Positions 24,372-52,887 of a DNA stretch of 56,056 bases are shown piece after piece. The position numbers and the translations under genes are program-made. The notes under the pieces were generated by a model. That model was not told the origin of the DNA. It did not search any database and saw only the letters and a list, made by a program, of their open reading frames with translations. The stretch is from contig VGKY01000001.1 of the NCBI GenBank assembly GCA_016866875.1, forward strand, positions 1 to 56,056. Direction: 5' to 3'. Positions within the stretch are counted from its first letter, which is position 1, and the number at the start of each line of letters is the position of its first letter. Source of the stretch: Candidatus Peribacteria bacterium (GTDB taxonomy: Bacteria > Patescibacteriota > Gracilibacteria > Peribacterales > Peribacteraceae).

Positions 24372-24416
24372 TACGTCTGCGGTCGATATTTTTCGAGATG
24401 CAGAAGCATTCGCCGC

Positions 24417-24498
24417 CCCCGCACCTTTTTTCACGTCTGTGGCTATCCAGTGGTAATCGTTATGCGTGATTACGACAGACAGGAAAAAAGGTGCGGGG
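24417..24498. repeat. Hairpin element (CCCGCACCTTTTTTC family), intergenic copy
   Basis: An 82-bp element with terminal arms CCCCGCACCTTTTTTC / GAAAAAAGGTGCGGGG and an inner partly paired region (GTCTGT.. / ..ACAGAC; GTAATC / GATTAC). It is the same family as the three elements inside the RNase P RNA gene at 28745, 28944 and 29229; in reverse orientation its inner sequence is closest to the third of these. Confidence 0.9.
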
Positions 24499-24518
24499 AG
24501 GATATCTTGAGCAGACCC

Positions 24519-24607: not shown

Positions 24608-25048
24608 ATGAAGGTCGTTGCCAGTAACCGCCGGGCACGCTTCGATTACGATATTCTCGAAACGATCGAAGCAGGAGTGATGCTCTCAGGACCCGAAGTG
24701 AAGTCCTGCAGAGCGGGGCATGTGACTCTCGCAGGAGCCTATGCTCTGCTGCGCGATGGTCGGGCATACATTCGTCATATGGCCATCGCACCGTACCGCT
24801 ATGCCGCAACGGATGCCGGGTACCAGCCATCGCGCGAACGGGAATTACTGTTGAAAGCAGAGGAATCCCTGCGCCTCACAGCGTCGGTGGATCAGAAGGG
24901 ATGCACGCTCATTCCCCTGGAAGTTCGTGCCGGGCGCTTCATCAAGATTGCGCTCGGTGTGTGCCGTGGGCGCAAGAAGTTCGACAAGCGTGCGGCGATC
25001 AAAAAGCGCGACACGGAGCGCCGCATACGTGAGGGGAGAGAGGTGTGA
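24608..25048 (+). CDS. smpB: SsrA (tmRNA)-binding protein
   Basis: A 146-residue SmpB, which carries tmRNA to stalled ribosomes. The beta-barrel opens ASNRRARFDYDILETIEAGV, with LSGPEVKSCRAGHVTLAGAY, and the basic C-terminal tail KKFDKRAAIKKRDTERRIRE is the part that enters the mRNA channel. The box TATTCT lies 6 bp before the ATG, suggesting a leaderless start. No complete tmRNA gene was found in the window. Confidence 0.95.
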   Translation: MKVVASNRRARFDYDILETIEAGVMLSGPEVKSCRAGHVTLAGAYALLRDGRAYIRHMAIAPYRYAATDAGYQPSRERELLLKAEESLRLTASVDQKGCTLIPLEVRAGRFIKIALGVCRGRKKFDKRAAIKKRDTERRIREGREV

Positions 25049-28720: not shown

Positions 28721-28744
28721 AGAGGTCTGCTCCTTGGATGACCG

Positions 28745-28827
28745 CCCCGCACCTTTTTTCGTGAAAGGAGTAACCACGATCCCGCGTACATTCAGCGGTT
28801 ACCGAGACCACGAAAAAAGGTGCGGGG
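28745..28827. repeat. Hairpin element in rnpB, P3 position
   Basis: Arms CCCCGCACCTTTTTTCGT / ACGAAAAAAGGTGCGGGG with an inner stem GTAACC / GGTTAC. It directly precedes the CR-I core. Confidence 0.93.
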
Positions 28828-28943
28828 AGGAACGTCCGGACTTCACAGGAACGCCATGTGGGTAACGCCCACCGCGGCGGCGCATACGCATCGTAAGATG
28901 CCAAGGCCGTTCGTAGGACCAGTGCCACAGTGACGAACCGCGT

Positions 28944-29024
28944 CCCGCACCTTTTTTCGTGAAAGGAGTAACCATGATCTCGCGTACATTCAGCGGTTAC
29001 CGAGACCACGAAAAAAGGTGCGGG
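28944..29024. repeat. Hairpin element in rnpB, P12 position
   Basis: Nearly identical to the P3 copy: only a few bases differ in the inner region. It lies between GAACCGC and GCGGGTGAAAC, where the P12 stem of E. coli RNase P RNA is found. Confidence 0.93.
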
Positions 29025-29228
29025 ATGCGGGTGAAACGCCCCGGGAACCGGGGACCTGCAACCGTCTCAGGCATCGCCTTACCGGCGGTGTCCGGGTCCA
29101 TGCAGTTCGGCAAACTCTTGGTGAAGCAAGGAGGATTTGGGTAATGGGAATCGACTATGGTTCCGTAGTCCCCACTACCCCTCCGCTCGAGCCCGCGAGC
29201 AATCACGGGCCTAGACAGATGGTCATCC

Positions 29229-29310
29229 CCCGCACCTTTTTTCCTGCCTCATTGTGACCAATGATCATGCGCGATCATTCGTTACCGCAGACATGAAAAT
29301 AGGTGCGGGG
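29229..29310. repeat. Hairpin element in rnpB, between P2 and CR-V
   Basis: Same arms (CCCGCACCTTTTTTC / GAAAATAGGTGCGGG, one change), different inner sequence (ATGATCATGCGCGATCAT). It sits immediately before ACAGAATCCGGCG, where some bacteria carry helix P19. Confidence 0.93.
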
Positions 29311-29341
29311 ACAGAATCCGGCGTATAGAGAAGCAGCAGAC

Positions 29342-51534: not shown

Positions 51535-51640
51535 TTGCTATCCAGAGTGGCGGAAAGGGAACTGGCCCGTTTGATCCGCCCCCCAACCCCCGACGATTCG
51601 GGAAGGTGGGAACTCCAGCCCCTACGGGGGAAGATAGGTC
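51535..51640 (+). ncRNA. SAM-I (S-box) riboswitch upstream of metK
   Basis: It matches the S-box core: CTATCCAGAGTGGCGGAAAG, GGAACTGGCCCGTTTGATCC, then CCCCCCAACCCCCGACGATT and GGTGGGAACTCCAGCCCC, closing with GGAAGATAGG. P1 pairs CTATC (51538-51542) with GATAG (51633-51637). It lies directly before a terminator and metK, so SAM would reduce metK expression, as known for this class. Confidence 0.85.
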
Positions 51641-51729: not shown

Positions 51730-52887
51730 ATGTCCTCCTTCTTCACTTCCGAATCCGTCACTGAAGGTCACCCCGATAAGCTCTGTGATCAGATCTCCGA
51801 TGCTGTACTCGACTATGCACTCAGCAAAGATCCACGGTCCCATGTTGCCTGCGAGTGTCTTGCCACTACCGGTCTCGTCGTCGTTGCCGGTGAGATCACA
51901 ACGAGTACCTACATCCCCATGGCGCAAGTTGCGCGCAATGTCATCCGCGAGATCGGCTACGACGATGGCATCTTCGGTTTCGATCACAAGGCCTGCGCGG
52001 TGATGGTGTGCGTCGGTGAGCAGAGCGCGGACATCGCTCTGGGTGTCGATGAATCAACGAACAAAGACAAGGAGCAGGGCGCGGGAGATCAGGGATTGAT
52101 GTTTGGTTTTGCGTGCGACGAGACACCCGAGCTCATGCCTCTTCCCATCAGTCTGGCACACGGGCTGACGAAAAAACTCGCGGAAGTGCGGAAGAAAAAC
52201 GGGCTCAAGTATCTGAGGCCCGATGGCAAGAGTCAGGTAACGGTGCAGTACAGCGACGATGGAAAGCCCGAGAGAGTGGAGTGTGTGGTGGTCTCCACGC
52301 AGCATGCGGAAGATGTCTCTCATGAGCAGATCTGCCGCGATATCCGGTCTCACGTTATTGATCCTATCTGCGGCTCGTACATCGATGCCAAGACGAAGTT
52401 TCACATCAACCCGACGGGTCGTTTCGTGATCGGAGGCCCTCCGGGGGACTGCGGATTGACAGGCAGAAAGATCATCGTCGATACGTACGGAGGGTACGGC
52501 CGTCATGGTGGTGGAGCCTTCTCCGGCAAAGACCCGAGCAAGGTTGACCGCTCTGCCGCGTATGCCGCGCGTTGGGTCGCCAAGCACATTGTAAAAGCGG
52601 GACTTGCCCGCAAGTGTGAAGTGCAGATAGCCTACGCTATCGGTGTTGCGGCGCCTGTCTCCGTGCGCGTCGATACCTTCGGTACCGCAACCACGTCCGA
52701 CCGAGCCATCGAGCAGGCGATTTCCAAGGTCTTCGATCTCCGTCCCGCGGTGATCATTCGCGATCTCGATCTTCTCAGGCCCCAGTACCGCGCGCTCGCT
52801 GCGTATGGACACTTCGGAAGGGAGGATCTCGATGTAGCGTGGGAGAAGACGCCGAGAGTGGAGGCGTTGCTTCGTGCATTTTCCTAA
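51730..52887 (+). CDS. metK: S-adenosylmethionine synthetase
   Basis: A 385-residue enzyme making SAM from methionine and ATP. It starts [20 protein letters not shown], with [51 protein letters not shown] and [20 protein letters not shown]. Length and motifs are standard. It is controlled by the riboswitch upstream. Confidence 0.97.

Follow-up and report, generated by a model that had tools for sequence, protein, structure and literature searches.

How did the same palindrome come to occupy three helices of a single RNase P RNA? This question is raised by the rnpB gene in a 56,056-bp stretch of DNA from a Candidatus Peribacteria genome, the whole of which is referred to here as the window. 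According to the original prediction, the RNA has an intact core into which three copies of one mobile hairpin element have been inserted at the peripheral helices P3, P12, and P19, each of them lengthening a stem, with a spread that appeared to be recent. We assessed these proposals by analyzing the gene (Table 1), the genome to which the window belongs (G000; 1.12 Mb, 98% complete), four other genomes of the genus (G001 to G004), and genomes from a broad range of other bacteria.

Table 1. Coordinates of the RNase P RNA gene, its helices, and the palindromes found in the window.
Feature	Position	Strand	Basis or remark
rnpB, class A RNase P RNA, P1 to P1	28725–29341	+	Rfam RF00010; P1/P2 helices; alignment to G001 and G003
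P1, 5' strand GTCTGCT	28725–28731	+	pairs with 29335–29341
P2, 5' strand GGATGACC	28736–28743	+	pairs with 29221–29228
Palindrome copy 1, forms P3, resident hairpin replaced	28745–28827 (83 bp)	+	19-bp arms CCCCGCACCTTTTTTCGTG/CACGAAAAAAGGTGCGGGG; short hairpins in sister species
P12 own base, 5' strand CCGCGT	28938–28943	+	pairs with 29025–29030
Palindrome copy 2, inserted in P12	28944–29024 (81 bp)	+	arm search, copy comparison
P12 own base, 3' strand ATGCGG	29025–29030	+	pairs with 28938–28943
P2, 3' strand GGTCATCC	29221–29228	+	pairs with 28736–28743
Palindrome copy 3, forms P19, interior diverged	29229–29309 (81 bp)	+	arm search, copy comparison
P1, 3' strand AGCAGAC	29335–29341	+	pairs with 28725–28731
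Fourth palindrome copy, intergenic, upstream of smpB	24418–24497	.	arm search; orthologous copy in G004
smpB, context of the fourth copy	24608–25048	+	Pfam PF01668, 3.4e-42

An RNase P RNA Gene With Palindromes in Three Peripheral Helices

The covariance model RNaseP_bact_a (Rfam RF00010) matched the gene with 106.8 bits (E 2.3e-33) and thereby placed it in class A, above the gathering threshold of 100 bits despite about 245 inserted bases. Because the insert in P3 displaces the true 5' end of rnpB, the model alignment starts at position 28795. P1 and P2 form helices without a mismatch, and the limits of the gene given in Table 1 are therefore exact. Its conserved core aligns with the genes of sister species and, with the palindromes taken out, the gene can be aligned end to end with those of G001 and G003 from the same genus. 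The proposed intact core was thus confirmed, and both the Rfam alignment and the alignment with G001 and G003 agree on the placement of the palindromes in P3, P12, and P19; the covariance model put none of them outside these helices.

All three palindromes possess the arms CCCGCACCTTTTTTC/GAAAAAAGGTGCGGG, about 19 bp in length, and in addition to these an inner helix; a single RNase P RNA hence does carry one element in three of its peripheral helices. The copies in P3 and P12 are 96–98% identical over 81–84 nt and are a recent duplication. The copy in P19 is only about 73% identical to that in P3, its right arm contains one change (GAAAATAGGTGCGGG), and it is older, separate, or a member of another subfamily, so that the recent spread envisaged originally applies to the P3/P12 pair and not to P19. 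In the same vein, the notion that an added hairpin lengthens a stem holds for P12, which alone retains its own base with the palindrome on top. At P3 and P19, the palindrome stands where sister species have a short hairpin; here, the resident hairpin has been replaced.

Occupation of the Sites Varies Among Species of the Genus

The rnpB genes of G001 and G003 lack the element and have short, unrelated hairpins at P3, P12, and P19, while that of G002 contains the element at P3, P14, and P19 and that of G004 contains it at P3. Three sites in the 23S rRNA gene of G000 also hold the element, and G001 and G003 possess other hairpins there (e.g., CCCATAATTTATTATGGG). From this patchy occupation across the genus, we conclude that the helix used varies by species and that the element takes the place of resident hairpins. 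The unrelated hairpins of G001 and G003, the use of P14 in G002, the copies present elsewhere in the genome, and the 4-bp target duplications at related copies described below together support the proposal of mobile copies as opposed to ordinary variation of helices.

Base changes in the arms are compensatory, among them an exchange of C-G for A-U at the third pair: 95.7% of the cells are paired, with 14 two-sided changes, a result found in 0 of 500 shuffles and set against values of 41–61% in slid controls. The element was not found in G003 with the arm pattern CMGCACCT. In this genome, the hairpins in rnpB P3 and in 23S helix 25 (L063, L127) both have the arms CCCTGTACC and perhaps represent a second arm subfamily.

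Dispersed Copies Concentrate in RNA Genes of the Genome

The ends of the element are inverted repeats of the form CC[C/A]GCACCTTTT…AAAAGGTGC[G/T]GG. When the genome of 1.12 Mb was searched with the arm pattern, ten copies were recovered, and none with a reversed control pattern, which argues against chance occurrence. Three of these copies reside in rnpB and three in the 23S rRNA gene; the remaining ones are found upstream of smpB, upstream of rplA, in a conserved sequence between tRNAs and gmk, and close to where a small gene begins, opposite an ORF6N gene. The probability that six of ten copies fall by chance into rnpB and the 23S gene is 1e-12 for the whole genome and 9e-7 when 10% of the genome is taken as non-coding. 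Leaving out the rnpB copies that prompted the search, three of seven copies are in the 23S gene (P 0.0014). These three are positioned at about 276–285, 540–547, and 1163–1185 in E. coli numbering, and two of them sit at the classic sites of intervening sequences (IVS), helices 25 and 45, a definition that by its nature places the rnpB copies outside. The 23S gene of G000 is 3973 nt long and also contains a long AT-rich hairpin insert near E. coli position 1413.

The arms of the copy upstream of smpB are identical in G000 and G004, while its interior is unrelated and its flanks have drifted. At this site (window positions 24400–24510; L287, L291, and L290 in G001, G002, and G003, respectively), a long hairpin is apparently present in every species of the genus; arm sequences differ among these three genomes and the window, i.e., the hairpin is kept and its sequence exchanged. 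The sequence next to gmk (L087/L115, about 8081–8320 on C25 of G000; homologues L084, L089, and L090) is conserved, apparently structured, and non-coding. It adjoins tRNA-Ala/tRNA-Arg, and one of its hairpins holds the element in four of five species. It has no match in Rfam and is possibly a new ncRNA.

A Longer Form of the Element Encodes a GIY-YIG Nuclease

In the genomes G059 (Parcubacteria) and G068 (Omnitrophota), arm pairs about 290–300 bp apart enclose an open reading frame of 85–86 aa that matches the Pfam GIY-YIG family. A search of 380 Patescibacteria for arms spaced 280–311 bp apart yielded seven matches besides the pair in G000 rnpB (control: 0), six of which contain a GIY-YIG reading frame of 81–97 aa exactly between inverted repeats of 18–23 bp (null 11–12). 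Four further GIY-YIG-bearing cases are added by G059, G068, G002, and G161, and the full form is about 280–310 bp in size. All seven longer forms scanned matched PF01541 (1e-12 to 1e-18), and no gene other than that for the GIY-YIG protein was present between the arms in the ten long-form cases. The three rnpB copies of the window lack such a gene. Unpaired arms in other genomes were mostly short copies with one mutated arm and included no further nuclease copies. Querying the PDB with the sequence of the G002 nuclease produced no match at E 0.01. In the seventh long-form match (L236 1440–1780, G307), the arms bracket a complete tRNA-Pro, and the 5' half of tRNA-Pro is found directly outside the left arm.

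The GIY-YIG form occurs in P3 of rnpB (G274, G161), in the 16S rRNA gene (G002, from the window's genus), and in the 23S rRNA gene (G137). One 16S site is filled by the GIY-YIG form in G002 and by a 70-bp copy without a reading frame in another Peribacterium, both with the identical end sequence, while G001 and G003 have the small hairpins CCCACACGCAAGTGTGGG and CCTCGCAAGAGG at the matching site. In the rnpB gene of G161, P3 is occupied by a GIY-YIG copy and P12 by a short one whose 17-nt arms are the same; this gene is a close parallel to that of the window. The arm-bearing GIY-YIG proteins of several phyla group together and separate from the armless ones (1 label change versus 8.9 when shuffled), with low branch support (41/88) and an armless set that stems nearly entirely from the window's genus. 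Other small GIY-YIG genes of the genus (L247 1415–1818; L249 1378–1785; L254) directly adjoin tRNA-Ile or tRNA-Tyr; part or all of the tRNA is repeated on their far side, and one of these repeats has a D-arm hairpin.

Insertion Signature and Distribution

Outside RNA genes, a perfect 4-bp direct repeat was present immediately outside [C/T]C...G[G/A] in 12 of the 21 copies tested, which derive from genomes other than G000 (permutation p<1e-5). These duplications are nearly always TTTA, TAAA, or TTGA, and two of them are at GIY-YIG copies. In pgk (Pfam PGK 4e-109), one copy is inserted in frame and has TTTA on either side. At the rnpB and rRNA sites, no target duplication is visible, and the resident hairpin is replaced, not interrupted. 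At one site on C5, where a small gene begins, both arms are changed around a loop that is similar to the native sequence.

Scanning 257 Gb of GTDB genomes for the pattern GCACCTTTTT N31–61 AAAAAGGTGCKGG returned 23 stretches, compared with about one expected (an estimate assuming uniform composition). They come from Peribacteria, Parcubacteria, Microgenomates, Kerfeldbacteria, Nealsonbacteria, Omnitrophota, and Bacteriovoracia, with two stretches in an Akkermansia MAG. All 23 have CC[C/A] in front of GCACC, although the pattern did not require this triplet. The element is present in the rnpB genes of two Omnitrophota, one of which (G068) contains three full copies plus a short fourth hairpin, as well as within rnpB of the Parcubacteria genome G059 and a Peribacteria 16S gene (L138). 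RNase P RNA has been invaded repeatedly, in at least four lineages, with two or three helices filled in several of them, and this amounts to a natural experiment on the helices in which large additions can be accommodated. The P3 form is absent from most Patescibacteria. There are 20 copies in G068 and 10 in the Nealsonbacteria genome G067; most of them are intergenic, so that short copies do not in general show the preference for RNA genes found in G000.

Intergenic copies in the Omnitrophota genome G068 (L171–L188) and in G071 (L200–L207) are bordered, beyond the palindrome, by additional conserved sequence, TGTSCGAAYTTA, which the rnpB copies lack. The tmRNA of a Microgenomates bacterium (L132 6843–7350) has one palindrome immediately 5' and one immediately 3' of it.

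Origin of the Palindromes

Taken together, we consider it probable, at roughly 0.7, that the hairpins in the window's rnpB gene are MITE-like copies, devoid of a reading frame, of a palindromic mobile element that is mobilized by a GIY-YIG nuclease and tolerated in RNA hairpins. The nuclease, the putative mover of the element, would recognize the arms or the target and make the cut that starts insertion. Since G000 has no arm-bearing GIY-YIG gene that we could find in its 98% complete assembly, its short copies would have been moved in trans. Copies in RNA genes would persist because the palindrome folds out as a hairpin, which takes the place of a peripheral helix or prolongs it and leaves the core undisturbed; RNase III may also trim their arms, in the manner of 23S intervening sequences. 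Three observations fit simple insertion poorly: the near-perfect arms of the copy upstream of smpB while its interior has diverged, replacement as opposed to addition at RNA hairpins, and the native-like loop between changed arms on C5. Copying from arm to arm during repair could explain arm conservation, hairpin replacement, and the loop on C5. No GIY-YIG nuclease is known to transpose DNA with target duplications on its own.

The hairpins might instead be intervening sequences that spread by recombination between RNA genes and are excised by RNase III so that the RNA stays fragmented, with the GIY-YIG gene as incidental cargo. The position of two 23S copies in helices 25 and 45 agrees with this proposal; arms of about 19 bp with an inner helix would be plausible substrates of RNase III, and short non-intron inserts at IVS sites have been reported in a survey of CPR rRNA genes (PMC11270868). 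The arms, however, are also found in frame in pgk and, accompanied by 4-bp target duplications, in the DNA that separates protein genes; their sequence is specific across phyla, while any double strand would suffice for processing. We therefore regard this explanation as unlikely; it is compatible with a mobile element, since processing could follow insertion.

Arms that are identical upstream of smpB in two species around an unrelated interior and between drifted flanks, and whose base changes are compensatory, could also point to a functional motif, retained by the cell as a protein or processing site and shared across phyla through a conserved binding protein and not through mobility. Such a motif should not be as patchy among sister species as the element is at every rnpB and rRNA site, nor would the P3 form be absent from most Patescibacteria, and both the target duplications and the GIY-YIG gene would be left unexplained; we judge this quite unlikely. 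That the nuclease gene parasitized an existing, independent family of palindromes is very improbable: short copies are indeed more numerous than GIY-YIG copies and are present in genomes that yielded none of the latter, but the two forms have the same site and the same ends in the 16S gene and the same arms in G161 rnpB, and the arm-bearing proteins cluster across phyla.

Several other candidates were discarded. A self-splicing intron was rejected because no Rfam intron family matched the elements; Intron_gpI had no match in the GIY-YIG forms, although the same library detects one elsewhere in the G000 23S gene. A phage origin was dismissed, as viral contigs contained no match to the element. 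A bidirectional terminator does not agree with a T-run inside the hairpin, nor with copies that lie in RNA genes and, in every orientation, between genes. A DNA uptake sequence was considered in view of the arm's similarity to the Haemophilus signal, but about ten copies per Mb are too few for this function. An assembly artefact is unlikely because independent assemblies (G002, G004, G068, G161, and G274) agree.

Relation to Known Elements

Rickettsia palindromic elements (RPE) are found in M1 RNA, in tmRNA, and in frame in protein genes (PMC2229807). The present element resembles them as a small palindrome in RNA genes and, in pgk, in frame in a protein gene. Compared by their descriptions, RPE are 105–146 bp, Rickettsia-specific, and described without a mobility gene (PMC2229807), whereas the arms reported here cross phyla and a GIY-YIG gene is part of the full form; its hosts are Patescibacteria and Omnitrophota, not Rickettsia. 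With 23S intervening sequences, the element shares a hairpin in place of the tips of helices 25 and 45; it differs from them by its additional presence in RNase P RNA, 16S, intergenic DNA, and pgk, by arms conserved in sequence, and by target duplications. Like bacterial MITEs, the short palindromes are dispersed, have inverted-repeat ends and a target duplication, lack a gene, and possess a longer partner with the same ends. That partner, however, encodes a GIY-YIG nuclease and not a transposase, and the inverted repeat spans most of the element. In cyanobacteria, STRR, tandem heptanucleotide repeats of the genome, occur within a peripheral helix of RNase P RNA. They are alike in being genome repeats at such a location and differ in being tandem heptanucleotides, not palindromes.

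In the survey of CPR rRNA genes, GIY-YIG genes were encountered in inserts belonging to neither the group I nor the group II introns; these were sparse and judged to be outside homing (PMC11270868). They probably include the element described here, although that survey concerned rRNA only and inverted repeats are not mentioned, in contrast to the arms and the copies in RNase P RNA that we report. RNase P RNAs of the CPR are divergent, have extended helices, and their genes are often missed by models (PMC8172020). Our findings help to explain both these missed genes and the short, unexplained inserts that fill 23S genes of the CPR. We found no literature that joins palindromes, nuclease, target duplication, and RNase P RNA, in a search for the most part outside subscription papers, so that this absence is no proof; reports on GIY-YIG proteins with rnpB concerned only fungal and algal mitochondrial and fungal genomes.

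Palindromic inserts in RNA genes such as RPE and IVS have long been without a known mover. Since the short palindromes and the nuclease form share ends, sites, and hosts, there is now a concrete and testable candidate. The comparisons of genomes presented here suggest a previously unrecognized family of mobile elements that shelter in the hairpins of essential RNAs. Whether it is a new class, namely a minimal palindrome of about 300 bp with nothing but an 81–97 aa GIY-YIG nuclease, a 4-bp TTKA duplication, spread between phyla among mostly ultra-small uncultured bacteria, and derivatives without a reading frame that serve as working helices of RNase P, 16S, and 23S RNAs, is a proposition to which we would give even odds. 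It would be one if the nuclease were shown to move the element, and elements of this kind could then be a source of palindromes and intervening sequences that have no known mover.

Two further features of this genome deserve mention. A group I intron is located in the 23S gene of G000 near E. coli position 1951 (L114 5082–5327, C1), and the window contains a SAM riboswitch (51535–51640) upstream of a likely S-adenosylmethionine synthetase gene (51730–52887).
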